A stretch of 64,000 bases of DNA from Thermoanaerobaculia bacterium. GTDB lineage: Bacteria > Acidobacteriota > Thermoanaerobaculia > UBA5066. The stretch spans positions 62,001 to 126,000 of the forward strand of contig JAJVIN010000001.1 of assembly GCA_022071945.1 (NCBI GenBank), given 5' to 3'. Every line of letters begins with the position of its first letter. The first letter of the stretch is position 1. The notes under the pieces were generated by a model that was not told where the DNA came from, did not search any database, and saw nothing but the letters and a program-made list of their open reading frames with translations. This document shows, piece by piece, positions 18,159 to 43,559 of this stretch. The translations under genes and the position numbers were made by a program.

Positions 18159-19141
18159 GGTACCGCGAGCTGAGGATCGCCATCGTGGATCCTCTGACCC
18201 TCGTGGGACGGGACCTGCGGGAGCTTCTGAAACAGCGAGGGTTCCCAGCTTCCCGGACCCGGCTCTTCCATAGCGACCCCGGAGAGGGAGGCCAGGTCGC
18301 GGAAGATGACGGCGAGGCTGCCTTCATCCCGCCGATTCGCCCGGGCGACCTGGAGGACTCGCAGTTCGTCTTTCTCTGCGGCAAGCCGGCCCGGTCGGGC
18401 GCGGTCATGAAGGGACACGCGGAGGCCCACGGAACCTTCCTTTGCCTCGGCCCGGTCTCTTCGGCCGAGCTCGCGTGGGTGGGAGCCCCCCGTCCCGAGT
18501 CGCGACTCCAGCGGCTCCCCCATCCGATGTCCTATGTTCTCGCCGAGACGGTCCGGTCCCTGGGCAGCGTCTCGGGAATGGAATCACTGACGGGGATCAG
18601 CGCCGTGATCGACCGGCCCGTGAGCGAAGTCGGCAAGGACGGTCTCGACGAGCTCTTTCAACAGGCGATCGCCCTGGCGTCCTTCAAGCCTCTGCCGAAG
18701 AAGTTGCTGGAGTTCCAGGCCGCCTTCAATGAGTTCTACCCTGACGATTCCGAAGAGTTCGATCGTCAGGTTGCCCAGGACTTCCAGGCGATGCTGCCGA
18801 AGAGCCCAGCACCCTCGGTGTTCTCGGCCCGGACGGGGATCTTTCACGGGCACCACCTCCGCCTCGAGCTGAGGTTCGGTGGTCCGGCCCCTTCGGCCGC
18901 GGACGCGCTCGAAGCCCTCTCGGCAAAGGACTCCGGGTTCGACGTCCGCGCTTATGATGACGGTGCCGGAGTGATCGACGCTGCCGGACAGGACGAGATC
19001 CTGGTGCTCAGGGCGAGCGCGATTCCCGGCAGCCTTCGCCTCGCACTCGCGTGCGACCACCTCAGAAGGCCTCTGGCCCTGCAAGCGGTGCGGCTGGCCG
19101 AGGAGATGGTGGCGGCGGCCGGGTTTCTGGCGGATGCCTGA
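18155..19141 (+). CDS. Aspartate-semialdehyde dehydrogenase-like protein (Usg-1 type), probably non-catalytic
   Basis: A 328-residue protein with the Asd fold. It has a Rossmann-like start (LRIAIVDPLTLVGRDLRELL) and a C-terminal dimerisation domain whose family segment reads SARTGIFHGHHLRLELRF. At the place of the catalytic NPNCsT it reads RLPHPMSYVLAET, so the active-site Cys is absent, as in Usg-1 paralogues. Role unknown. The GTG start overlaps the pssA stop, which implies coupled translation. The stop codon lies in the first unit of a tandem repeat. Confidence 0.82.
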   Translation: MRYRELRIAIVDPLTLVGRDLRELLKQRGFPASRTRLFHSDPGEGGQVAEDDGEAAFIPPIRPGDLEDSQFVFLCGKPARSGAVMKGHAEAHGTFLCLGPVSSAELAWVGAPRPESRLQRLPHPMSYVLAETVRSLGSVSGMESLTGISAVIDRPVSEVGKDGLDELFQQAIALASFKPLPKKLLEFQAAFNEFYPDDSEEFDRQVAQDFQAMLPKSPAPSVFSARTGIFHGHHLRLELRFGGPAPSAADALEALSAKDSGFDVRAYDDGAGVIDAAGQDEILVLRASAIPGSLRLALACDHLRRPLALQAVRLAEEMVAAAGFLADA

Positions 19142-19196
19142 CCCTCAGGATGCCTGACCCTCAGGATGCCTGACCCTCAGGATGCCTGACCTCAGG
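19133..19196. repeat. Four tandem 16-bp repeats between convergent stops
   Basis: The unit GATGCCTGACCCTCAG is repeated at 19133, 19149 and 19165, with a fourth copy at 19181 lacking one C. Each unit junction can form CCTGA-CCC-TCAGG, a 5-bp hairpin with a 3-nt loop. The array contains the stop codon of the Usg-like gene (first unit) and that of the convergent lipoprotein (fourth unit). It may act as a two-way terminator. Confidence 0.85.

Positions 19197-24571: not shown

Positions 24572-24575
<4 letters not shown>
20670..24575 (-). CDS. Large NtrY-like membrane sensor histidine kinase
   Basis: A 1301-residue kinase. An N-terminal signal/anchor and an extracytoplasmic domain (residues 25-215) are followed by about eight membrane segments (215-460), a second periplasmic region, further membrane segments around 675-755 and 880-910, a HAMP segment, a PAS-like domain and the kinase core. 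The H-box is [17 protein letters not shown] (phospho-His near residue 1078), the N-box [10 protein letters not shown], then [14 protein letters not shown] and GSGMGLF. This is the NtrY/AtoS class. No response regulator is adjacent. The TTG start overlaps the hutU stop and the stop overlaps the lipoprotein start, so hutU, kinase and lipoprotein look like one translational unit. Confidence 0.88.
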
Positions 24576-26257
<1,682 letters not shown>

Positions 26258-26264
26258 GAAGAAA

Positions 26265-26270
26265 TGTTAG
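26265..26270 (-). promoter_or_regulatory. -10 box TAACAT for hutU
   Basis: On the minus strand TAACAT ends 7 nt before the hutU ATG, with no Shine-Dalgarno between. This fits leaderless transcription of the hutU-kinase-lipoprotein unit. Confidence 0.45.
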
Positions 26271-26303
26271 CTCTCGAGGGTCCGTCCCGGAAATCCAAGA
26301 AAA

Positions 26304-26322
26304 GTTAGCGCGTTGCGTTAAC
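26304..26322. promoter_or_regulatory. Upstream palindrome of the granule cluster; left copy of the flanking inverted repeat
   Basis: GTTAGCGCGTTGCGTTAAC is an imperfect palindrome 7 bp upstream of a TTGACA box. Its reverse complement matches the stretch at 33705-33723 in 17 of 19 positions. Its first 15 bases (GTTAGCGCGTTGCGT) recur there without error on the opposite strand. It also resembles the operator at 26337-26355. Confidence 0.6.
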
Positions 26323-26328
26323 TGGGTC

Positions 26329-26357
26329 TTGACAAAGATAACGCAGCGCGTTATCTT
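26329..26357 (+). promoter_or_regulatory. Promoter of the PhaR-like gene with embedded operator
   Basis: TTGACA (26329-26334) is a full -35 match, followed by a 17-nt spacer and TATCTT (26352-26357). GATAACGCAGCGCGTTATC (26337-26355) lies between and over the boxes; the arms extend to AAGATAACGC/GCGTTATCTT (26335-26357) with 10 perfect base pairs. A repressor bound there would block RNA polymerase, so autoregulation by the PhaR-type product is the simplest idea. Confidence 0.65.
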
Positions 26358-26376
26358 TCGTGTCCAGGAGATGGCC

Positions 26377-27069
26377 GTGAGACAAGTCGTACGCTACCGC
26401 AACCGAAAGCTCTACGAACCGGCGGAGCGCCGGTTTGTCACAATCCAGGATCTGGCGCGAAGCGTCGCGGCCGGAGAACCGGTCGAAGTCCGATCCGCCG
26501 AAACAGGGGAAGACCTCACCGCGAAAATCCTCTCCCGGGCGCTGGCGAGCGAGAGGAGCCCGATCCCGGCCTCGACCGATGCCCTGACGAAGCTCCTTCG
26601 GGCCAGCAGCGAGGCGGCGGAATCGGTCGCCGGGATGGTCGAGAAGGTGGCCGGACAGAAGGTCGCCGATTCGGTTCGACGCGCCTCTTCTCCCGAACGG
26701 CTCGCCGAGACGCTGGCTCCCCTGACCCGCCGGGTCGAGAACGCCCGCACCGATGTCGAGCGGATCGTGGCCGGTCTCGTCGGCCGGGGCCGCCTGACGT
26801 GGGAAGAGGGAGCGCGCCTGAAGGAGGACTTCGGGACGGTCTTCCACGAAAGCCTTCGCGACGTGCTCGACCGCGTCCGCGAACTGATGGTGCGGATCTC
26901 CCCGCAGACGACACCCGAGATTGCCCGTGAGATGGCAGACCTGAAAACCCGGATCGACCAGCTCGAGGCGCTGGCGGCCCGTTCTTTTGCCACCCCATCG
27001 GTTCCCGCCTCCAAACCACACCAGAACGGACGCCCTGCGTCCGGAACGAAAAGGAGAAAGACAGCATGA
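26377..27069 (+). CDS. PhaR-type polyhydroxyalkanoate synthesis regulator
   Basis: Residues 1-50 match the PHA accumulation regulator DNA-binding domain: VVRYRNRKLYEPAERRFVTI, QDLARSVAAGEPVEV and TGEDLTAKIL. In known systems PhaR represses phasin genes and is titrated away by PHA granules. The rest (residues 60-200) is helical and charged, with VDRVREL- and EMADLKTRIDQLEAL-type coiled segments. The start is chosen at GTG 26377 because AGGAG (26366-26370) is 6 nt upstream; the ATG at 26371 touches that site, and the TTG at 26329 is the -35 box. The stop overlaps the phasin start (ATGA). Confidence 0.87.
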   Translation: MRQVVRYRNRKLYEPAERRFVTIQDLARSVAAGEPVEVRSAETGEDLTAKILSRALASERSPIPASTDALTKLLRASSEAAESVAGMVEKVAGQKVADSVRRASSPERLAETLAPLTRRVENARTDVERIVAGLVGRGRLTWEEGARLKEDFGTVFHESLRDVLDRVRELMVRISPQTTPEIAREMADLKTRIDQLEALAARSFATPSVPASKPHQNGRPASGTKRRKTA

Positions 27070-27695
27070 CCACCTCGCGCAAGAAGACAGTGACCGCCGC
27101 GTCCCTTCCGGTTCCCGCCCCCTTCGAGAAGGCTCTGAAGACCGCCGCCGAGAAGGTGGAAGGCATCGCCCAGGAAACGAAGGACATGGCCGCCAAGGTC
27201 GAGCAGGGGTTCCGCTCCGCCGCGACGAACATGAAGAAGAAGGGCCAGAACCTCGCCAAGAACCCGAAGGGCTTCGTCGAGACGGTGGTCCGGGATGGCA
27301 AGACCATCTCCGCGTCCGTCAAGGAGAACGTCGAGAAGGTGCGTGACGAGATGTCCCGGGAAGCCACCCGAGTCGCCGAGGAAGTTTCCAAGCGTGTCTC
27401 GGCGGCCGTCGAGAAGGTCGTCGACAACTCCCTGCACCGTCTCAACGTGCCGACCCGCGACGAGCTCAGAATGCTCACCCACAAGGTCGACCTCCTGGCC
27501 AAGAAGATCGACATCCTGACCGGTGTTCCCAAGGCCGCCGTGAAGCCCGCGCCCAGGCCGGCCGCCAAGCCCGCTCCGCGCGTCGTGGCCAAGGCCCCCG
27601 CGAAGGCCGTCAAGGCTCCTGCGCGCAAGCCCAGGAAGCCCGCCGCCAAGCCCGAGGCCGCCGTCGTGGCGCCCGCGGCCGAGACCAAAGAGTAG
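27066..27695 (+). CDS. PhaF-like phasin with histone H1-like tail
   Basis: A 209-residue protein. The N-terminal about 130 residues are amphipathic helix (FEKALKTAAEKVEGIAQ, VKENVEKVRDEMSREATRVA). Residues 137-158, with LNVPTRDELRMLTHKVDLL, form the short coiled segment typical of PhaI/PhaF phasins. The C-terminal about 50 residues are Lys/Ala/Pro repeats (KPAPRPAAKPAPRVVAKAPA) like the DNA-binding tail of PhaF. Such proteins coat PHA granules and tie them to the nucleoid so that granules are shared at division. Coupled to the PhaR-like gene by a 4-nt overlap. Confidence 0.8.
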   Translation: MTTSRKKTVTAASLPVPAPFEKALKTAAEKVEGIAQETKDMAAKVEQGFRSAATNMKKKGQNLAKNPKGFVETVVRDGKTISASVKENVEKVRDEMSREATRVAEEVSKRVSAAVEKVVDNSLHRLNVPTRDELRMLTHKVDLLAKKIDILTGVPKAAVKPAPRPAAKPAPRVVAKAPAKAVKAPARKPRKPAAKPEAAVVAPAAETKE

Positions 27696-27716
27696 AATTC
27701 GTTCCCGGGGAACGTC

Positions 27717-27750
27717 GCGGCTGCCGTGGACCTTCGTCCGTGGCAGCCGC
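27717..27750 (+). terminator. Hairpin between phasin and patatin genes
   Basis: GCGGCTGCC pairs with GGCAGCCGC (9 bp) around an inner GGAC-CTTC-GTCC stem-loop with a GT/GT internal loop. It starts 22 nt after the phasin stop. No U-tract follows, so it may be an attenuator or an mRNA-stability element that lowers patatin expression relative to phasin. Confidence 0.5.
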
Positions 27751-27776
27751 TGTTCATTGGAGGGAGGGGGGACACC

Positions 27777-29084
27777 GTGGCATCGACATCGCCCCGCAGA
27801 CCGGCGGCCCGATCGAACCGCCGGGCTCGAAAGGAAACCACGACGGCCTCATTCCCGACTCCCCTCAGAGCCCGCCACGGTCTTGTCTGCGCGGGAGGCG
27901 GCGTCATGGGGGCTTACTACGAGATGGGCGCCCTGGCCGCGATCGAGGAACGGCTCGAAAACGCGTCCCTTTGTGACTTCGACATGTTCGTCGGCGTCTC
28001 GGCCGGCTCGTACATCGGAACCCTCGTCGCCAACGGGATCTCGCCCGCTCTCCTCTACAAGATGACGCAGCGGCCGCCGGGACCGAGGACCGACATCGAC
28101 GACCTCGGATTGTTCCGGCTGAACACCCGAGAGATCCTCGAGCGGCTCGTCAAGGCTCCCGTCACCATCCTCAACGCCGGCTGGGACTATTACAAGAACC
28201 GCCACGAAACCCAGCTCACCGACCTCATTCAGTCTCTCGGCGAGCTCCTTCCCTCCGGCATCTTCACAACCGATGGGCTCGGGAAGTGGGTGGAGAACTG
28301 GCTCTCGGAACCCGGCCGCAGCAACGACTTCCGGCGTCTTGAGCGGAAGCTCCGGATCGTGGCCGTGGATCTCGACACGGGGGAGACCCGAGTCTTCGGC
28401 AAGCCGGGATCCGCGCACGTCCCGATCCACCGGGCCGTCCAGGCTTCGTGCGCCGTGCCCGGTCTCTACTGTCCCGTGAGGATCGACGGCTTCGACTACG
28501 TCGACGGCGGCGTGAGAAAGACCGCTCACATCTCCCTGGCTCTCGAGGAGAGGTGCGGACTCGTCATCTGCGTCAACCCGATCGTGCCGGTGCACCACCC
28601 TCCGCTGCAGAAGGTCTTCCACCTCTCGTATGGCGACCACGGGGTCATCGCGAGCGCGGGGCTCCCCTCCATCCTCGACCAAGTCTTCCGTGTGACGCTC
28701 CACTCGCGCATGCAGTACGGAATGGCCCGCTACCTAAGAGAGAGTCCGGACGCGGACATCCTCCTCTTCGAGCCCCGTCCCGAGGATCTCCCGCGCTTCA
28801 TGTTCAACATCATGCGCACGTCGGGCCGTGCCAGCATTGCCGAGTTCGCCTACCGGTCGACCCTCTCGAGTCTGGACAGCGACTATGGCCGGCTTTCCCG
28901 AATCTTCGAGCGGCACGGACTCCGGCTCAAGCCGCCCGCGCAGGAACCAGGCAAGGCCGAGGCCGTTTCTGGCCATCCCGGCCAGAAGCTCGCCGCTTCT
29001 CTCGAGGTCCTGGAAAAGAGGCTCGACGAGGCGGCGCCGGCGGTCCTTCCCTTCAGGAGGGGCCAGCTTCGTCTCGTCCGCTAG
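27777..29084 (+). CDS. Patatin-like phospholipase/lipid acyl hydrolase
   Basis: A 435-residue serine acyl hydrolase. The oxyanion loop is GLVCAGGGVMGAYYEMGAL, the nucleophile elbow MFVGVSAGSYIGT (GxSxG) and the dyad Asp lies in YVDGGVRKTA. The first about 40 residues are basic and disordered. The start GTG at 27777 follows a GGAGGGAGGGGGG stretch; a GTG at 27726 lies inside the preceding hairpin and is rejected. Within a granule cluster it could act on storage lipids, granule-surface phospholipid or PHA; the sequence does not say which. Confidence 0.9.
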   Translation: MASTSPRRPAARSNRRARKETTTASFPTPLRARHGLVCAGGGVMGAYYEMGALAAIEERLENASLCDFDMFVGVSAGSYIGTLVANGISPALLYKMTQRPPGPRTDIDDLGLFRLNTREILERLVKAPVTILNAGWDYYKNRHETQLTDLIQSLGELLPSGIFTTDGLGKWVENWLSEPGRSNDFRRLERKLRIVAVDLDTGETRVFGKPGSAHVPIHRAVQASCAVPGLYCPVRIDGFDYVDGGVRKTAHISLALEERCGLVICVNPIVPVHHPPLQKVFHLSYGDHGVIASAGLPSILDQVFRVTLHSRMQYGMARYLRESPDADILLFEPRPEDLPRFMFNIMRTSGRASIAEFAYRSTLSSLDSDYGRLSRIFERHGLRLKPPAQEPGKAEAVSGHPGQKLAASLEVLEKRLDEAAPAVLPFRRGQLRLVR

Positions 29085-29093
29085 CCGGGCGCT

Positions 29094-30056
29094 CTACTCG
29101 CCCGACCAGACCCCGCCCCGGCGGGCCAGCCTGGAGTCGATCATCCGCTGGATCGTGGTTCGAACGAGGTCGGTCACCTCGTTGACGATCATCGGACGCT
29201 CCGCTCCCTCTGGCGGATACGTGGGAAAAATCGGCGGACCGATGTCGATCCACCATTTCGACGGCAGCGGAATCACTCCCAGAAGGCCGAGGGCCGGGAA
29301 GAACGGCGTGATCGGGAAGTAGGGAAAGCCGAGCGGACGGCCAATCACATCGGCCTTGGCAATCGTCGGGTAGATCTCTTCCGCCCCGACGATGGCAACC
29401 GGGATGATGGGGGACTGAGTCTTCAGGGCGAGGCGAACGAACCCGCCCCGGCCGAACCGGGCCAGACGGTACCGGTCCTGGAAATACTTGCCGACCCCCT
29501 TGACGCCCTCGGGGAAGACGCCGACGAGCTCGTCGCGCATCAAGAGCCGCTCCCCGTTCTCCGGGCACGCGCGCACCTCTCCCAGCTGCCGGAGCCACGG
29601 CTGCAGGAACGGCAGCGTCGTGAACATGTCGAGGATCAGCATGCGGGCCCGGCGCTTGGCCGGGTGCTCCTTCAGAATGCCGTGCTTGACCATTCCTCCG
29701 TCGAACGGCAGGACGCCCGAGTGGTTGCACACGAGGAGCGCCCGTCCCGTGACCGGGATGTTCTCGACGCCGCCGAGCGTGACGCGCCACCACACCTTGT
29801 ACAGGAACTCCAGGAGCGTTTCCCACTGCCGGGCGGCGACCGAGTCGTAGCCGAAATCATCGAGCTCCAGGCTCTGGTTGCGCTGGCTGAAAAGGTTCCA
29901 GAGGTCGACGAGTGCCCGGGGTGAGTTGAACTGGGGGTTCTCCGCCAGGAAGCGTCTCGCCTCACCTAGGACCTTCGCCAGGGCATCGTCCGGCGCCTGG
30001 GGCGGCGGCAGGCTGGGGACGAAGGGCCGCGGGCGGACGGTCTCGTGGCCTCTCAC
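29094..30056 (-). CDS. Glycerolipid acyltransferase family protein (PlsC-like)
   Basis: A 320-residue acyltransferase. The catalytic HxxxxD motif reads VCNHSGVLPFDGGM, and the glycerophosphate-binding motif reads GVFPEGVKGVGKYF. PIIPVAIVGAEEIYPT and the C-terminal region fit the phospholipid/glycerol acyltransferase family. Residues 1-80 are an extra helical N-terminus. The GTG start overlaps the epimerase stop by 4 nt, and the gene converges on the patatin with a 9-nt gap. The acyl acceptor is unknown; lysophospholipid or a diacylglycerol-type acceptor are possible given the cluster. Confidence 0.87.
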   Translation of the reverse strand: MRGHETVRPRPFVPSLPPPQAPDDALAKVLGEARRFLAENPQFNSPRALVDLWNLFSQRNQSLELDDFGYDSVAARQWETLLEFLYKVWWRVTLGGVENIPVTGRALLVCNHSGVLPFDGGMVKHGILKEHPAKRRARMLILDMFTTLPFLQPWLRQLGEVRACPENGERLLMRDELVGVFPEGVKGVGKYFQDRYRLARFGRGGFVRLALKTQSPIIPVAIVGAEEIYPTIAKADVIGRPLGFPYFPITPFFPALGLLGVIPLPSKWWIDIGPPIFPTYPPEGAERPMIVNEVTDLVRTTIQRMIDSRLARRGGVWSGE

Positions 30057-31264
30057 AGCGCCACCCGCCTCGGGCTGGCCGCCTTCTCGGGAGGCCGGTT
30101 GCTTCCGTCGGTGTTCTCGGGGCGGAAGGGGTTCATTCTCTGTTCTTGCTGGAAATTGGACCGCCGGGCCGCGTCGGCGATGGCCTCGAAGTTGAGAATC
30201 CGGCCCCGTCCTCGCCTCGCCCGGACCGTCTGCAGGACGGTGTCGAACGTCGAGAACGATGGCGAAAAGCCCAGGACTCGCCGGGCCTTCTCGTTCGTGG
30301 CGATGCAGTTGTACCGGATGTAGTGGGCGTGGATTCCCGGGGCGAATCCGGCGCCCGCCAGCCAGGCGGCCTCGATGGCTCCGTACGCGACGGTGTGCGG
30401 GATGGGAACGGGAAGGGTCCCGTACAGGAGGAGAACCGTCGAGAGCGGCAGGACGCCCTCGGGGACGATGTTGAACGCGCCGTGCGCGCCCGGGTTCTCC
30501 AGCGCGGCCACCATGGCGGCCGTGGCGTCCTCGGGGTGAAGGAACTGGAGCAAGGGGTCGTAGCCGAGCATGGTGACCGCCGCCGGGGCCTCGAAATAGC
30601 GGGTCTTGTAGTCGCGGATCTCGGGCGAGAGCACCTGCGCGAACCTCAGGACAGCCACTTTCGCGTCCGGGTGCCGTTTCGCGTGAGTCCGGGCGTGGCG
30701 CTCGGCCTCCACGAAGTCCAGGACAAACTTGTCATGGACGTCGGCCCGCATCGGGTGGTCCTCGGTGAGGAAGTTGGGGTTGTCCCCGCGGGCGCCGTAC
30801 ACCATGGTCGTCGAGCCCAGGATGATCCTGGGGACCTTCGCCTCGCCAGCGGCCGCGAGCACGTGCAGCGCGCCGAGCGAGTTCAGCTCGTGGATGTACG
30901 TGTAGTCGTGGGAGGGGCTGCGGAGCGCAGCGAGGTGGATGATGACGTCCGGCTTTTCTTCCTTGAGGAGCTTGAAGACGGAGCCGTCCGCGTGAGGGAG
31001 ATTGAGATCCAGGAAGCGGTGCCTCACGTCCGCCGGGACGTTGGGCGCGGGCGCCAGATCGAAAACGACGATCTCCCATTCGTCCCTCGGGGCGAGGGCC
31101 CGGATCAGGCGGGCGCCGAGAAAGCCCGCTCCCCCGGTGATCGCCACCTTCGGCCGGCGCGCCACGGACGGAGTGAACCCGATTACCCGGCCTCCCTTCC
31201 GCTGGCGCGGTTTTCTCTCCTCCACCGCTCCCTCGGGAGCGGTCTTTTCCTCATCCTTCATCAT
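30053..31264 (-). CDS. NAD-dependent epimerase/dehydratase family protein (extended SDR)
   Basis: A 403-residue protein. A basic N-terminal extension (residues 1-35) precedes a Rossmann fold, KVAITGGAGFLGARLIRAL, with an Asp (VVFDLAP) that favours NAD. HLAALRSPSH and ILGSTTMVYGARGDNP follow. The usual YxxxK catalytic pair is not evident; after the segment DHPMRADVHDKFVLDFVEAE the Tyr position seems replaced. The C-terminus is low complexity. The ATG at 31264 is preceded by GGGAG 5 nt upstream. It lies between the small phasin-like gene and the acyltransferase in one minus-strand operon. Confidence 0.82.
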   Translation of the reverse strand: MMKDEEKTAPEGAVEERKPRQRKGGRVIGFTPSVARRPKVAITGGAGFLGARLIRALAPRDEWEIVVFDLAPAPNVPADVRHRFLDLNLPHADGSVFKLLKEEKPDVIIHLAALRSPSHDYTYIHELNSLGALHVLAAAGEAKVPRIILGSTTMVYGARGDNPNFLTEDHPMRADVHDKFVLDFVEAERHARTHAKRHPDAKVAVLRFAQVLSPEIRDYKTRYFEAPAAVTMLGYDPLLQFLHPEDATAAMVAALENPGAHGAFNIVPEGVLPLSTVLLLYGTLPVPIPHTVAYGAIEAAWLAGAGFAPGIHAHYIRYNCIATNEKARRVLGFSPSFSTFDTVLQTVRARRGRGRILNFEAIADAARRSNFQQEQRMNPFRPENTDGSNRPPEKAASPRRVAL

Positions 31265-31285
31265 GCGATCTCCCTGAACGAACCG

Positions 31286-31588
31286 TCAGTCCGCGGCGGC
31301 AGCCTTGCGGCGCGGACGGGGCTTTTTCTCCTCGGCCTTTTCCTTCAGCCCGGCCAGTTCGGCCTCGAGCTCGGAAATCCGGCGTTCGAGCTTCGTGAGG
31401 TCCTTGCGGGTGACGAGGTTCATCCTCTTCATGGCGACGGCCACTTGCTCGTCCACGGCTTCCTTGGCGGCAACGCCCTTCTTGAGCGCGTCGAGAAAGA
31501 CCGGATTGGCCATGAGGGTGTTGGCCAGCTTGTTGAAGAACTCCTCGCCGCGGGCCATGAGTTCCTTGATGATCGAGTCCGTCACCAT
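31286..31588 (-). CDS. Small phasin-like coiled-coil protein
   Basis: A 100-residue helical protein: TDSIIKELMARGEEFFNKLA, then MKRMNLVTRKDLTKLERRIS with a heptad zipper ELEAELAGLKEKAEE and a basic tail (KKPRPRRKAAAAD). The pattern L-x-TR-x-D-x-x-L-x-x-RI-x-x-LE resembles the C-terminal segment of PhaI/PhaF phasins and of the phasin at 27066. The start is ATG 31588, 5 nt after AGGAGG; a longer frame from 31612 would place that site inside the coding region. First gene of the minus operon, divergent from the ArsA gene across the 21-bp repeat array. Confidence 0.75.
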   Translation of the reverse strand: MVTDSIIKELMARGEEFFNKLANTLMANPVFLDALKKGVAAKEAVDEQVAVAMKRMNLVTRKDLTKLERRISELEAELAGLKEKAEEKKPRPRRKAAAAD

Positions 31589-31659
31589 CTTTTCCTCCTG
31601 GTGCGTCCGCACCGAGACCAGCCAGCGATTATCCTGCCTGAAGACCGAATCAGGAACTG

Positions 31660-31764
31660 CGAGTACGGCCCAATCTTCCGCGAGTTGGGCACGATCTTGG
31701 GCGAGTACGGCTCAAAGTTGGGCGAGTACGGCTCAAGCCTGGGCGATCAAGATCCAAAGTTGGG
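31660..31764. repeat. Five 21-bp direct repeats in a divergent intergenic region
   Basis: Units begin at 31660, 31681, 31702, 31723 and 31744. The best-conserved core is CGAGTACGGCTCAA, ending in TTGGG or CTGGG; units 3 and 4 are nearly identical, and units 2 and 5 are the most diverged. The 21-bp period is two DNA turns, so bound proteins would line up on one face. The array fills most of the 191-bp gap between the phasin-like and ArsA genes. Confidence 0.85.
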
Positions 31765-31779
31765 GGAAACTAGCGCTGG

Positions 31780-33672
31780 ATGGCTCCCGCCCCCCTCCCC
31801 GACTCGATCACCGCTGTTCTGCGACACAGGCTGGTCATCGTCTCCGGCAAGGGAGGCGTGGGAAAGACGGTCGTCGCCTCGGCCCTGGCGGCCCTGTCTG
31901 CCCGCGGCGGACGGCGAACCCTCCTCGTTTCGAGCGATGGCCGGGGCGATGCCGCGGCCCTCTTCGGTCATCCGGACCCCGGGTACACCGAATCACCCCT
32001 CGAGAAGGACCTCAGCGCGCTGACGGCGGAATTCGACTCCCTGCTTGCGGACTTCGTGAACGAGAGCGTTCCCCTCACCCTCATCGCGGACAGAATCCTG
32101 GCCTCCTCGACCTTCAGGTACTTCACGAGGGCCACCCCGGGGCTCCCCGACCTGCTCCTGCTCGGGAAGCTCCGCCACGTCCTCCAGAGACCCCGGCGTG
32201 GACGCAACAGCGGTGCGTACGACACGATCGTCCTCGACTGTCCGGCGACCGGCCACGCCATCTCGCTTCTCGCCTTGTCACGGACGATCATGAAGACCGT
32301 CCCGGCCGGTCCGATGCGAAAGGTGGCGGTCGACCTCGACAAGTTCCTGACGACTCCGGGCTTCTCGACCCTGGTCGGGGTGTGTGAACCCGCGGAGTTC
32401 GCCGTCGCCGAGGCCTCGGAGCTCTTTGACGCAGCCTGGAAGAGATCCGGTCTGCGGGGATCGCTCCTCGTCGTGAACCGCCGCGGGCGGGGAAGCCGGC
32501 AGGCCGTGCTGCCAACGATCGAGATCCCATCCCTTTCCGTTCCCGAGATCCCGCCAGCCTCGATGGAGGCCCCGATGGACGGCGAGTTCGAGGCCGACAA
32601 GGCCTTCTTCGAGGAGTTCGTGCGCTCCTTCCCGGCGGGTGAGAAGCCGGCGCCTCGCCCCGTGCACAGTTCGGTCCGGCGCCTCGCCACGACGACGACG
32701 AGCCCCATCGAGACGGCGTTCTCGACGAATCTCCTCGTATTGCTCGGCCCGGGGGGTGTCGGCAAGACGACGCTCTCGGCGGCCTCTGGAATTGCCGCCG
32801 CCGCCACCGGGAAATCCGTCGTGGTCCTCACGGTCGATCCGGCCCGGCGGCTCGCTCAAGCCCTCGGAATCGACGTGTCCAACGAGCCCGTGCCCGTCAC
32901 GAAGTCCGGAGAAGTCCTGTCCGGAAAGCTCTATGCCCAGCAGATCGACCCGCGGGCCGTCTTCAACCGCCTGCTCAGCCGGATCGCAACCCCCGCGGCC
33001 GCGGCCCGGATCCGGGAGAACCGTCTTTTCGACGGCCTCGTCGATTCCCTGCCGGGTGTCCTCGAGTACATGGGAGTGGAGGCTCTCTTCGAGCACGCCC
33101 AGGACGGCCGGTTCGACCTGATCGTTCTCGACACCCCGCCGGCTGCCCGCGGAATCGAGTTCCTCGACTCTCCCAAGCGAATGGTCGAACTCCTCTCCAA
33201 CGACGCCCTGAAGTGGTTCCTGAAAGAGGACTCCCTTCTCGGCCGGGCCTTCTCGGGCGCGGCCCGAGGAACCTCCGCCCTCCTCAAGCTGGCGGACAGG
33301 CTCCTGGGGCTGGGCTTTCTCTCAGACATGGCCGAGTTCTTCCGGGTCTTCGAGGGTCTCTATGCCGGTTTCGAGGAGCGGAGCCGCGTCATCGAGGCCG
33401 AGATAGCCAGAGCCCGGTTCTTCCTCGTCGCGTCCCCCGACAGGTCCGCGCTCAGGACCGTCGAGACCCTCAGAAGGAGCCTCGGCGACCGGGGGTCGGA
33501 GGCCGGGCTCTTCATCAACCGGGTGCCCCCGGACGGGCTGCCCCTCGAGTTCCTTCCGCCCGGATTGCGATCCCTGCCCCGCTTTCTGATTGAAGAAAGC
33601 GGCGGCCAGGTCGAGGACATCCCGTGGGATCTCTCCCGAGCGCTCCTGGCACCCGCCCCGGTTTCCTCCTGA
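31780..33672 (+). CDS. Fused tandem ArsA/GET3-family ATPase
   Basis: A 630-residue protein with two ArsA-type NTPase domains. Domain 1 (residues about 10-290) has VIVSGKGGVGKTVVASALAA with the signature Lys, and DTIVLDCPATGHAISLL. Domain 2 (about 318-625) has LLVLLGPGGVGKTTLSAASG, where Pro replaces the signature Lys, VVLTVDPARRLAQALGID and LIVLDTPPAARGIEFLD. ArsA homologues drive arsenite pumps or tail-anchored protein targeting, but no arsenic genes are present. The granule context suggests targeting or assembly of granule or membrane proteins. The start ATG at 31780 gives an N-terminus 10 residues before the first beta strand. Confidence 0.85.
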   Translation: MAPAPLPDSITAVLRHRLVIVSGKGGVGKTVVASALAALSARGGRRTLLVSSDGRGDAAALFGHPDPGYTESPLEKDLSALTAEFDSLLADFVNESVPLTLIADRILASSTFRYFTRATPGLPDLLLLGKLRHVLQRPRRGRNSGAYDTIVLDCPATGHAISLLALSRTIMKTVPAGPMRKVAVDLDKFLTTPGFSTLVGVCEPAEFAVAEASELFDAAWKRSGLRGSLLVVNRRGRGSRQAVLPTIEIPSLSVPEIPPASMEAPMDGEFEADKAFFEEFVRSFPAGEKPAPRPVHSSVRRLATTTTSPIETAFSTNLLVLLGPGGVGKTTLSAASGIAAAATGKSVVVLTVDPARRLAQALGIDVSNEPVPVTKSGEVLSGKLYAQQIDPRAVFNRLLSRIATPAAAARIRENRLFDGLVDSLPGVLEYMGVEALFEHAQDGRFDLIVLDTPPAARGIEFLDSPKRMVELLSNDALKWFLKEDSLLGRAFSGAARGTSALLKLADRLLGLGFLSDMAEFFRVFEGLYAGFEERSRVIEAEIARARFFLVASPDRSALRTVETLRRSLGDRGSEAGLFINRVPPDGLPLEFLPPGLRSLPRFLIEESGGQVEDIPWDLSRALLAPAPVSS

Positions 33673-33675
33673 GCG

Positions 33676-33733
33676 CGCCCGGACATTTCGAGATTACGTC
33701 TCATGTAGACGCAACGCGCTAACGCTCCGGGCG
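33676..33733. other. Convergent intergenic structure containing the right flanking repeat
   Basis: CGCCCGGA (33676-33683) can pair with TCCGGGCG (33726-33733). Between them lie a small GAGA-TTACG-TCTC hairpin (33689-33701) and the palindrome at 33705-33723. It sits between the stops of the ArsA gene and hutH and may end transcription from both sides. Confidence 0.35.
33705..33723. repeat. Right flanking inverted repeat of the granule cluster
   Basis: GTAGACGCAACGCGCTAAC matches the reverse complement of 26304-26322 at 17 of 19 positions. The shared perfect core is 15 bp (GTTAGCGCGTTGCGT, read inward from each end). Together the two copies bracket a 7.4-kb block. Confidence 0.6.
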
Positions 33734-33750: not shown

Positions 33751-35283
33751 TCAGAGGAGATTCCCGAGGAGACCGGGAAGATCCTTGCGGATCACGCGTC
33801 GCGCCGCCTCGATGTCTGCCGCCGCGTAGCGGTCGTGATCCCAGGCAGAGACGGAGGTCCGGAGGAGCGCGCACGCTTCCTCGAGAATCGGGGACGAACG
33901 GAGCGGACGGCGGAACTCCATGGCCTGGGCGGCAGCGAGGAACTCGATTGCCAGGACACCCTCCAGGTTCTCGACGTTTCTTTCGAACTTGCGCGCCGCA
34001 ATCGGCCCCATCGAGACGTGGTCCTCCTTTCCAGCGGAGGTCGGAATCGAATCGACCGAGGCTGGGAACGAGTTCGCCTTGCACTCGGAGACGAGAGCGG
34101 CGGCCGTCACGTGAATCATCATGAACCCCGAGTTCAGGCCGGGCTCGCTCACGAGGAAGGCGGGCAAATCCCCCGACAGGGAAGGATTGACGAGCCGTTC
34201 CGTCCGGCGCTCGGAGATCGAGGCCAGGTCCGTCACCGCGGCCGCGAGCAGGTCGAACGTCAGGGCCACGGGAGCGGCGTGGAAGTTCCCGCCCGAGATC
34301 AGGACTCCCCCGCCGTTCTCGTCCTCCGCGAAGACCATCGGGTTGTCCGTCGCGGCGTTCATCTCCGTCTCGACGACCCTCCGTGCGTGGGAAGCGGCGT
34401 CCCGGACGGTGCCGTGAACCTGCGGGGCGCAGCGGAGGGCATAGGCGTCCTGGACGGACTGGCAGGCCCGGTGGCTCTCGCGAAGGGCCGAGCCCTTCAG
34501 GAGCTCGCGGAGATTGCTCGCCGAGGCCAGCTGGCCGGGGTGGGGGCGGGCCTGGTGGATCCGCAGGTCAAAAGCCGCATCTGTACCCTTGAGCGCGTCC
34601 AGGGACAGAGCGCAGATGAGGTCGGCAGCCCGCAGGAGCCTCAGAAGGCGCGCCAGGGCGAGAGCTCCGACCGCCGTCGTCATCTGGGTTCCGTTGATGA
34701 GGGCGAGGCCCTCCTTTGCCTGGAAGGTCACGGGACGGAGCCCTTCTTTTTCGAGGGCCAGGCGAGTTGGGACTCTTTGCCCGCGATGGAAGACTTCTCC
34801 TTCTCCGAGAAGGGTCAAGGCGAGGTGCGCGAGCGGGGCCAGGTCGCCGGAGGCACCCACGGAGCCCTGACACGGGACGACGGCCACGACATCCCGGGAC
34901 AGGAGGTCGAGGAGGCACTCGAGAGTTGTGCGCCGAACGCCCGAGAAGCCCTTCGCCAGGCAGTTGGCGCGCAGGAGCATGAGCGAGCGGGCAACGGGAA
35001 CGGGCAAGGGATCGCCCGTCCCGGCGGCGTGGCTCCTGACGAGGTTGAGCTGGAGCTCTTCGAGTTTGTGGTGCGGGATGACGACGTCCGAGAACTTTCC
35101 GAAACCGGTGGTGACTCCGTAAACCACCCGGTCCTCGGCAATGGCGCGATCGATGACCGCCCGCGCCGCGTCCACGCGGCGGGCGGCGAGGGGAGAAAGC
35201 GTGGTGGAGACGCCCTCGTGAGCGGCCCTGTCGAGATCCTCCAGGGCCAGGGATTCCCCGTCCAGAATGAGTGAATGAGGCAT
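33751..35283 (-). CDS. hutH: Histidine ammonia-lyase
   Basis: First step of histidine degradation, giving urocanate and ammonia. In 510 residues the MIO cofactor triad Ala-Ser-Gly is in CQGSVGASGDLAPLAHLAL, near residue 145. Other motifs are YGVTTGFGKFSDV with the catalytic Tyr, LINGTQMTTAVGALAL, HPGQLASASNLRELL, NAATDNPMVF and SAGKEDHVSMGPIAARK. The ATG at 35283 gives the normal N-terminus; an upstream extension in frame lacks similarity. GAGAAT at 35291-35296 precedes the start by 7 nt. It lies back-to-back with purA and is separated from hutU by the granule cluster. Confidence 0.97.
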   Translation of the reverse strand: MPHSLILDGESLALEDLDRAAHEGVSTTLSPLAARRVDAARAVIDRAIAEDRVVYGVTTGFGKFSDVVIPHHKLEELQLNLVRSHAAGTGDPLPVPVARSLMLLRANCLAKGFSGVRRTTLECLLDLLSRDVVAVVPCQGSVGASGDLAPLAHLALTLLGEGEVFHRGQRVPTRLALEKEGLRPVTFQAKEGLALINGTQMTTAVGALALARLLRLLRAADLICALSLDALKGTDAAFDLRIHQARPHPGQLASASNLRELLKGSALRESHRACQSVQDAYALRCAPQVHGTVRDAASHARRVVETEMNAATDNPMVFAEDENGGGVLISGGNFHAAPVALTFDLLAAAVTDLASISERRTERLVNPSLSGDLPAFLVSEPGLNSGFMMIHVTAAALVSECKANSFPASVDSIPTSAGKEDHVSMGPIAARKFERNVENLEGVLAIEFLAAAQAMEFRRPLRSSPILEEACALLRTSVSAWDHDRYAAADIEAARRVIRKDLPGLLGNLL

Positions 35284-35290
35284 CGGGGCG

Positions 35291-41338: not shown

Positions 41339-43102
41339 CTACGGGATTATGGGAAAGTCCCCTTCAGAGGCCTTCTGAACGGGGAAGGGCTTCAGCTCGC
41401 TTCTGGCGACCTGTTGTGTGGCGGGATCGGTCAGCGTCACCTGGAGCTCCAGCACTTTGCCGTGCACCAGACTCGCGGGAACGACGCCCTCCCATGCCTC
41501 GCCCCGGCTCGTGAGACGGACCTCCAGCGGTCGTCCCGCTTCCATGACGAGGAGACCGGCCGTGCCTCTCCTCCCGCCGCCCACCACGACACGAACCACG
41601 GCGTCCTTCTTCTCCCTGAGCGGAGAAGCGAACGTGATCTGAACGTCTCTCAAAAGGTGATCGAAGAGGACCGCCGCGGGTTCGTCACGCCTGGGCAGCG
41701 GCGGGATGGCGGTTGCAGGGGGAGCTTGCGGTACGGCCTCCTCGGCCGGTCGTTGCGCGGCCGGCGCGGCGGGAACACTCGCGCCCGGTGAGAGGTCCGC
41801 CTTCTTCGTCGCAAGAGGTTCCCGCTCTGTCTTGTCTGGCGGAGCCGTGGCCGGCTTCTTTTCGCTGAAGGCGACTTGGCGTCCCGAAAGAGACGGGGTC
41901 GGAGCCGGAACCGTTCCCGGCGGCGCCTCCTGGAGGACCGTGGGGACAGTCCTGAGCGCTTCCCGCGGAGCGATGCCTGGGGCCGGATCCTGGGACGCAA
42001 GAGCGGGACTGTCCGGCTTCACGGGTCTTCTCGAGGCGACGAGTATCGCTGCCACCGCAATCGCTCCCACGGCGGAAAGGACGCCAGCAACAAGCCAGTT
42101 TCTCCCCGGGGAGCGAGCGGTGGATTCCAGAACCGGCGGCAAGGAGGTGCTCACCTTCGGAGCCGTCTCTATGACGACGACACGCTCCGTGGAGTCACCA
42201 GGCGTGCCGTCACCGGACGCATGCGAATCCAAACCCGGAGGCACGGCCCCCGCCTCGACGGATTCCGACAGAAGAGCCCGGCGCAGAGCCGACACGAAGG
42301 CCTGACAGGAGGGGAACCTCTCCTCGGGCTTCTTCGCGAGGACTCTCGAGATCACGCTGTCGACGCCGGGAGCCAGGCCGGGGGCGAGGGTCGAAACCGG
42401 CACCGGTTGCTCGTAGACCGTCCGGTGCACCCTTGCCACACTCGAACTCGCTTCGAAGGGCTCCTTTCCCGTCAGAAGCCAGTAGGCCAGGACGCCAAGG
42501 GAGAACTGGTCCGTCGCGGGCCCCGCGGGCTGCCCCTGCGCCTGCTCGGGCGACATGAATCCGGGCGTTCCCATCACGAAGCCCGTGGCCGTCAGCCTGA
42601 GGCCCTCGACACTCCGCGCCAAGACGAAATCCGACAGGAACAGGTGGCCGTTCTCGTCGAACAGGATGTTGGCGGGCTTCACGTCTCGGTGGACGATGCC
42701 CTTCCCGTGTGCATGGTCGAGCGCGGCCGCGAGGTGCGCGAGCCCCGTCAGCTGTTCCTCGACCGTGTTCCATCGGCCGGGATCGGCCAGATCCCCGCCC
42801 GGCATCAGAGCCATGACGAGGAATGCGCGGTGCTCGTCCTCGCCGAAGTCATGGACGGGGACGATGTGAGGGTGGATCAGCGAGGCGGCGAGCCTCGCTT
42901 CCTGCACGAACCTCTCCATGAATCCGGGCTGTTCGGCGATGTGAGGGAGGACCAGCTTCACCGCGACGTGACGCTGGAGCTTGGGGTCGAAGGCCCGCCA
43001 GACCTGGGCCATCCCGCCCGCGCCGAGCCTCTCCTCGAGCTGGTAACGCCCGAGACGCAGTCCGCTCCCCGCGGTTCCCGCTCCGGTGGGTCCTTCTCGC
43101 AT
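41339..43102 (-). CDS. Ser/Thr protein kinase with membrane anchor and DFV motif
   Basis: A 587-residue PknB-like kinase. The kinase domain (residues about 18-275) has RLGAGGMAQVWRAFDPKLQR, the lysine in VAVKL, HRDVKPANILF, then LSDFVLARS where DFG would be expected, and GTPGFMSPEQ. A Pro/Ser linker leads to one transmembrane segment (NWLVAGVLSAVGAIAVAAIL) and a periplasmic Pro-rich part. The end has a small beta domain (FDHLLRDVQITFASPLREKK to the end). The start is ATG 43102 with AGGA upstream; a longer frame from 43174 adds an unsupported Arg-rich leader. It is in the same orientation as the VOC gene just upstream, with a 25-nt gap. Confidence 0.88.
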   Translation of the reverse strand: MREGPTGAGTAGSGLRLGRYQLEERLGAGGMAQVWRAFDPKLQRHVAVKLVLPHIAEQPGFMERFVQEARLAASLIHPHIVPVHDFGEDEHRAFLVMALMPGGDLADPGRWNTVEEQLTGLAHLAAALDHAHGKGIVHRDVKPANILFDENGHLFLSDFVLARSVEGLRLTATGFVMGTPGFMSPEQAQGQPAGPATDQFSLGVLAYWLLTGKEPFEASSSVARVHRTVYEQPVPVSTLAPGLAPGVDSVISRVLAKKPEERFPSCQAFVSALRRALLSESVEAGAVPPGLDSHASGDGTPGDSTERVVVIETAPKVSTSLPPVLESTARSPGRNWLVAGVLSAVGAIAVAAILVASRRPVKPDSPALASQDPAPGIAPREALRTVPTVLQEAPPGTVPAPTPSLSGRQVAFSEKKPATAPPDKTEREPLATKKADLSPGASVPAAPAAQRPAEEAVPQAPPATAIPPLPRRDEPAAVLFDHLLRDVQITFASPLREKKDAVVRVVVGGGRRGTAGLLVMEAGRPLEVRLTSRGEAWEGVVPASLVHGKVLELQVTLTDPATQQVARSELKPFPVQKASEGDFPIIP

Positions 43103-43127
43103 CGTTTCCTGAGATCCTATCCCTGCG

Positions 43128-43559
43128 CTACCTTCTCTCGCGGGCTCTCCGCGCCAGCTCCTCCGGCGGGACATCCTCCACGTGTGTCGCGATCCACCAC
43201 TTGTTTCCGGAAGGGTCCTTGATCCCCGCGTTGCGGTCGCCGTAGAACTGATCCGCGGGCTCCATCAGAGACTCGCCTCCAGCCTGGATGGCCTGACGGT
43301 AGAGAGCATCCGTGTCAGGCACGTAGAGGTAGAGGGACGAGGGCATGGGCGGGAAACCCTCCATCGCCTCGCCCATCATCACCATCGAGTCGCCAATGCG
43401 GACCTGAGCGTGCATCACTCGGCCCGTCCCGTCGGACGTGCGTTCGATCTCCGTCGCCCCGAGCGCCGCCTTCAAGAACTCGAGGAGCCCTGGGACACCC
43501 TCTACGACAAGGTACGGAGTCACGGTATGGAATCCCTCAGGAATCGGCTTCACTGCCAT
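43128..43559 (-). CDS. VOC family (PhnB/glyoxalase-like) protein
   Basis: A 143-residue protein of the vicinal oxygen chelate fold: FHTVTPYLVVEGVPGLLEFL, RVMHAQVRIGDSMVMMGEA, SSLYLYVPDTDALYRQAIQA and DRNAGIKDPSGNKWWIATH. The pattern, with PYL then DPxGNxW, matches the PhnB-like subgroup, whose members include small-molecule binders and putative dioxygenases or isomerases. The ATG at 43559 follows GGGAGGG by 5 nt. Substrate unknown. Confidence 0.87.
   Translation of the reverse strand: MAVKPIPEGFHTVTPYLVVEGVPGLLEFLKAALGATEIERTSDGTGRVMHAQVRIGDSMVMMGEAMEGFPPMPSSLYLYVPDTDALYRQAIQAGGESLMEPADQFYGDRNAGIKDPSGNKWWIATHVEDVPPEELARRARERR

Follow-up and report, generated by a model that had tools for sequence, protein, structure and literature searches.

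Between hutU and hutH, in the 64,000-nucleotide stretch of DNA analysed here (the window), lies a block of storage-related genes together with palindromic sites and repeats. The features, in window coordinates, are as follows.

24572–26257, minus strand: hutU, the left flank (TIGR01228)
26304–26322, no strand: putative operator O2, 19-bp palindrome GTTAGCGCGTTGCGTTAAC, which includes the left 15-mer and precedes the -35 box of phaR
26329–26357, plus strand: sigma-70 promoter of phaR, TTGACA - 17 - TATCTT, with TTGACA and the spacer operator conserved
26337–26355, no strand: putative operator O1, GATAACGCAGCGCGTTATC, a perfect palindrome (8+3+8) that occupies the spacer of the promoter and overlaps its -10 box
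26371–27069, plus strand: phaR-type regulator, PHB_acc_N DNA-binding domain and helical C-terminal part (PF07879, E=1.4e-14)
27066–27695, plus strand: phasin 1 (PF05597, E=3e-10)
27717–27750, plus strand: hairpin with a 15-bp stem between phasin 1 and patatin
27726–29084, plus strand: patatin-like lipase (PF01734, E=7.8e-26); conserved part from near 27870, listed start uncertain
29094–30056, minus strand: PF01553 acyltransferase with weak DAGAT similarity, fold matching PlsC
30053–31264, minus strand: NAD-dependent epimerase/dehydratase family protein (PF01370, E=2.3e-22)
31286–31612, minus strand: phasin 2 (PF05597, 2.7e-6, slightly under the cut-off; matches phasin 1 in a profile comparison, E 8.2e-10)
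31659–31746, no strand: array of 4.2 tandem copies of a 21-bp repeat, in the gap between the divergent phasin 2 and BagAB genes
31780–33672, plus strand: fused BagA-BagB (Get3/ArsA-type) ATPase (NF053622 and NF053621 below cut-offs; ArsA_ATPase in two stretches)
33705–33723, no strand: O3, weaker PhaR-like palindrome that includes the right 15-mer and lies in the gap where bagAB and hutH converge
33751–35286, minus strand: hutH, the right flank (TIGR01225)

Profile searches upheld the gene calls of a preliminary description of this DNA, namely a PHB_acc_N regulator, two phasin-like proteins, a patatin, a PF01553 acyltransferase, an NAD epimerase and a fused double ArsA/Get3-type ATPase. The regulator, whose start may be the GTG at 26377, carries the N-terminal PHB_acc_N domain (PF07879, 54.3 bits against a cut-off of 25). 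It scored 41.6 bits against the NCBI PhaR equivalog TIGR01848, below the cut-off of 109.45, and we therefore call it PhaR-type rather than PhaR proper. Its C-terminus was considered as a phasin-like domain and rejected, as profile comparison gave 25% probability against phasin 2 and none against phasin 1. A second, distant phaR homologue is present in five genomes of the family (L150–L154), in four of which it adjoins a gene similar to that for the protein at 41339–43174 of the window; none was found in the genome studied here.

The acyltransferase has both PF01553 and PF03982 in 14 of 14 members. We found no sequence relative of it in the PDB, and its predicted model (pLDDT 71, middling confidence) matches PlsC. 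The idea that the enzyme could be DGAT-like comes solely from weak DAGAT profile matches and a loose resemblance to TMEM68. In the fused ATPase, the two halves best match the BagA and BagB models of Mycobacterium, which we take to be the Get3-like ATPases Rv3679 and Rv3680; unlike these, the protein here is one chain, adjoins phasins and scores below the curated cut-offs. Most relatives, too, have a GC-rich hairpin between phasin 1 and patatin (window 27690–27760), and a conserved TAGACT/TAAACT (-10-like) box usually comes immediately before it. The hairpin is likely an attenuator or terminator, and could set the phasin:lipase ratio. The 21-bp tandem repeats have a palindromic character (TTGGGCGAGTACGGCTCAA); they were considered as a possible second operator array but were not seen in relatives. 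Elsewhere in the window, four near-perfect 16-bp tandem repeats of GGATGCCTGACCCTCA lie at the convergent end of two genes (19132–19196). An Rfam search of the region gave no matches.

As had been described, a 15-mer, GTTAGCGCGTTGCGT, is present at both ends of the block in inverted orientation. The exact copies, at 26304–26318 (plus) and 33709–33723 (minus), are separated by 46 bp from the start of hutU (26257) and by 27 bp from the stop of hutH (33751), respectively; they are the only two in the 6,170,929-bp assembly. Both are parts of 19-bp palindromes of the form GWTARCGC-NNN-GCGYTAWC and, because each site is itself a palindrome, the inverted orientation carries little information. Beside the left 15-mer we found a further, more perfect site (O1, 26337–26355) that the preliminary description had missed. 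O1 and O2 are the only zero-mismatch sites for this pattern genome-wide, and O1 alone fits TNACGCRNYGCGTNA. O3 has two mismatches. We scored the sites with a matrix built from the relatives' sites and compared them with 6 Mb of random sequence. The scores of O1 (27.0 bits) and O2 (18.5 bits) were never reached there, while that of O3 (10.1 bits) was reached about 29 times; 0.002 matches at that score would be expected in the roughly 420 intergenic bases of the block. The operator case rests, therefore, on the left pair. Elsewhere in the genome, matches with up to two mismatches outside the block were no more numerous than those of a reversed-pattern control, and strict-pattern matches elsewhere in genus g3 and in G001 revealed no consistent target.

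O1 fills the 17-bp spacer between TTGACA and TATCTT, and O2 is found immediately upstream of the -35 box, in a gap that is the divergent hutU/phaR promoter region. The centres of the two are 33 bp apart, and the pair flanks the -35 box of the phaR promoter. On the hutU strand of the same gap, a CTAACAT-like box 5–10 bases before the hutU start (window 26257–26275) is conserved in relatives and resembles a -10 box that would give an almost leaderless hutU mRNA. We saw no operator before the phasin 2–epimerase–acyltransferase operon or before bagAB.

The arrangement at phaR resembles that of known PhaR systems. In Sinorhizobium meliloti, the PhaR (AniA) consensus is WNWD2NYGCRNYGCRNH2WNW, WNWDDNYGCRNYGCRNHHWNW, and two PhaR sites flank the -35 box of both phaP1 and phaP2 (PMC12542648). 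O1 and O2 match this consensus with no mismatches and O3 with one; as in S. meliloti, the pair flanks the -35 box and the apparent targets include a phasin. Unlike the bacterium studied here, S. meliloti stores PHB and has phbC, and the sites in its own phaR promoter are weak, whereas the strongest sites here, known from sequence, are at phaR itself. PhaR homologues are reported to bind their own promoters (PMC12542648, PMC3206438). The Ralstonia eutropha PhaR site, YTKNTGCRNYGCANMAR, is likewise a palindrome with an RNY centre (PMC12849132); the site of Herbaspirillum PhbF, which binds its own promoter, is TG[N]TGC[N]3GCAA and has a TGC-N3-GCA core (PMC3206438). In these systems, too, a phasin gene is repressed. 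The sites of these two species are of the type TGC...GCA, in contrast to CGC...GCG in the family studied here and in Vicinamibacteria; within the class, TGC was seen in family f9 only.

We then compared the locus with those of relatives, which, where records are named, are Acidobacteriota, in part Thermoanaerobaculia. TTGACA followed by the same kind of palindrome (O1) was present in all 12 cluster-bearing genomes of the family (our own and 11 relatives), in each of which the strict pattern matches the phaR promoter. An equivalent of O2, which in several relatives lies about 33 bp upstream of O1, can be recognised clearly in roughly half of these genomes and is degenerate or shifted in the rest. 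In another class, Vicinamibacteria, such palindromes also stand before phaR at five loci that are not next to hut; most of these loci have two, and TTGACA with the spacer operator is retained with small changes. Essentially all 18 more distant homologues in the class (25–32% identity) have a YGCRNYGCR palindrome before phaR; two of these loci were read by eye. In L026 the palindrome has a mismatch, and in L024 the promoter copy runs beyond the stretch read. The outer bases of the palindrome vary by lineage (ACGC/GCGT, CCGC/GCGG or, in f9, GTGC/GCAG). The TGC-type palindrome precedes phaR in PhaC-bearing f9 (L031, L033–L037, L039 and L040), and the CGC type in PhaC-less families. Since the palindrome is found before phaR in the family, in Vicinamibacteria and in distant homologues, it travels with phaR, and the regulator acting at the repeats is most likely the adjacent PhaR. 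It could be argued that the palindromes serve another regulator, such as one of the hut genes that controls the hutU promoter across the gap, given that this gap is shared by the two divergent promoters and that O2 is the site nearer to hutU. However, it is phaR rather than hut that the motif accompanies in Vicinamibacteria and other families, which makes this explanation very improbable. We regard the operator part of our reading, putative PhaR sites in the promoter of phaR itself, as strong.

The preliminary description had offered two explanations for the repeats, the ends of a mobilised block or binding sites for one regulator. The cluster lies beside hutU and/or hutH in ten family relatives, and in an eleventh (G013) the contig ends before either; single contigs span hutU, the block and hutH in six (G003, G005, G008, G010, G011 and G012). 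Gene order in the family is identical as far as the contigs reach, except in G007, where the acyltransferase comes immediately after phasin 1 and the patatin gene is apparently missing (L042, 4407–4550). In the sister family f3 (G015, G017 and G018), the order of purA, hutH and hutU is the same, but hutH lies directly next to hutU and the block is absent; it is retained in the family studied here (f1) next to the same purA flank. This suggests that the block entered between hutH and hutU near the base of its present family or, less likely, was lost in f3, and the preliminary view of an insertion was right in evolutionary terms. The block appears old, as its proteins are 38–78% identical across genera. 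The module also occurs in Vicinamibacteria, away from hut. The phaR–(phasin)–patatin core recurs in several families of the class, and the mirror half, acyltransferase–epimerase–phasin 2, is common to the family and Vicinamibacteria. In Vicinamibacteria, the mirror half is preceded by a thioester/fatty-acyl-reductase-like gene; all eight genomes of our family tested have an unlinked orthologue of this gene (mostly 63–68% identical), and both f3 genomes tested lack it.

An insertion that is missing from f3 and has an exact 15-mer at each end, with no further copy in the genome, could be taken for a mobile element that used these 15-bp inverted repeats as its termini to bring the storage block into the hut operon. 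However, the left-end palindromes are twofold, lie inside a promoter, fit a published regulator motif and are conserved in phaR promoters outside hut. The right copy (O3) is absent from the bagAB–hutH gap of all six relatives that share the insertion and have an examinable gap, so that conserved terminal inverted repeats at both ends, as expected of a transposon, were not found. In agreement with the earlier remark that no transposase was seen, no block protein has a transposase or recombinase domain as its main match. We consider mobile-element ends scarcely credible. The palindrome travels with phaR and the right copy is weak in the window and absent from these relatives, which argues that the 15-mers mark PhaR autoregulation. 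If this is right, a block can resemble a transposon when the repeats at its ends are in fact operators. The bagAB–hutH gap of G005, the nearest relative, carries a toxin–antitoxin-like pair (an AbrB-like antitoxin and a likely PIN toxin) together with one more small gene (L041, 2000–3460).

The right-hand copy itself is possibly a chance occurrence. It is the third best site in the window and one of the few two-mismatch sites in the genome, which would fit a working, lineage-specific third operator, for instance one that acts in looping or blocks read-through between bagAB and hutH. Such a role is unlikely, as there is no evident promoter for O3 to control, it is not conserved, and random sequence reaches its score at the frequency given above.

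The PhaR and phasin families take their names from PHA, and the preliminary description had remarked on the lack of a PHA synthase in the block. A genome-wide search bore this out: no PhaC_N synthase was found in the organism's own genome, nor in 12 of 13 family relatives, many of them more than 95% complete, nor in six genomes reached through Vicinamibacteria-type loci. A highly divergent PhaC would escape a PhaC_N search; the class III PhaC model gave 35.7 bits in the genome itself, against a cut-off of 365. In the wider class, PhaC was found in family f9 only, at a distance of about 1 kb from phaR in the genomes for which both genes could be placed, and G006 has one PhaC-like match at a contig edge. 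The f9 linkage, the match in G006 and the family names would suit an ordinary PHA granule cluster, with the same PhaR operators and inclusions of PHA made by a divergent or unlinked synthase. Given the absence of PhaC_N from the genome and nearly all family relatives, and a class III match far below the cut-off, we think this improbable.

The earlier suggestion that the stored material may not be PHA gains support, short of proof, from the absence of PhaC_N and from the wax-ester/triacylglycerol synthase WS/DGAT. Two WS/DGAT proteins score over the cut-off in the genome studied here (G000). Overall, WS/DGAT is present in 26 of 61 genomes, and phaR in 25 of these 26 versus 11 of the 35 others (Fisher 1.7e-7; the test ignores shared ancestry, and the pattern holds roughly family by family). 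The WS/DGAT genomes with phaR include the only phaR-bearing member of f11; phaR without WS/DGAT was seen in f4 and in two f6 genomes. In two families the synthase, the enzyme of WS/DGAT-based wax ester and triacylglycerol storage, is near phaR, phasin and patatin genes, lying between phasin and patatin–phaR in G060 and about 4 kb beyond patatin in G022. WS/DGAT was not found in several cluster-bearing family members (for example, G002, G005, G010 and G011), implying that another enzyme, perhaps the cluster acyltransferase, serves there or that the link to lipid is looser. Since PhaC was not found and the module tracks WS/DGAT, the inclusions would most likely be triacylglycerol or wax ester; this is the least certain step of our reading.

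Taken together, we consider it probable that a PhaR-type, granule-sensing repressor controls a phasin and a patatin lipase on neutral-lipid inclusions, and that the repeats are its operators. In this circuit, a PhaR dimer (or a pair of dimers) would bind O1, in the spacer of the phaR promoter, and O2, 33 bp upstream, and so repress the phaR–phasin 1(–patatin) operon, its own gene included. When hydrophobic storage inclusions form, PhaR would be drawn to their surface, as published for titration by PHB inclusions (PMC12542648), and the freed promoter would allow phasin (coat) and patatin (lipase) to be made in step with the inclusions. The module comprises phaR–phasin 1–patatin facing acyltransferase–epimerase–phasin 2, with the BagAB ATPase added in the family studied here; it most likely entered the hutH–hutU operon in an ancestor of this acidobacterial family and stayed.

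Operators and a circuit of this kind are already known, and what looks new is the PhaC-less, WS/DGAT-linked setting with CGC-type operators. In the literature searched, which included few subscription journals and makes this a weak negative, we found no report of a PhaR-type regulator tied to WS/DGAT lipid bodies. We suggest, tentatively and with somewhat more doubt than conviction, that in PhaC-less Acidobacteriota the repressor was retuned from bioplastic granules to triacylglycerol/wax-ester droplets, where it would set phasin and patatin levels, and that the TGC to CGC operator shift accompanied the change. If our reading is true, the PhaR/phasin granule-sensing circuit would serve neutral-lipid bodies as well as PHA, and a YGCRNYGCR palindrome upstream of phaR would offer a simple genomic marker for such clusters. 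The Acidobacteriota, a phylum abundant in soil, would then have a candidate lipid-storage set of coat proteins, lipase, acyltransferase, reductase and Get3-like ATPase.
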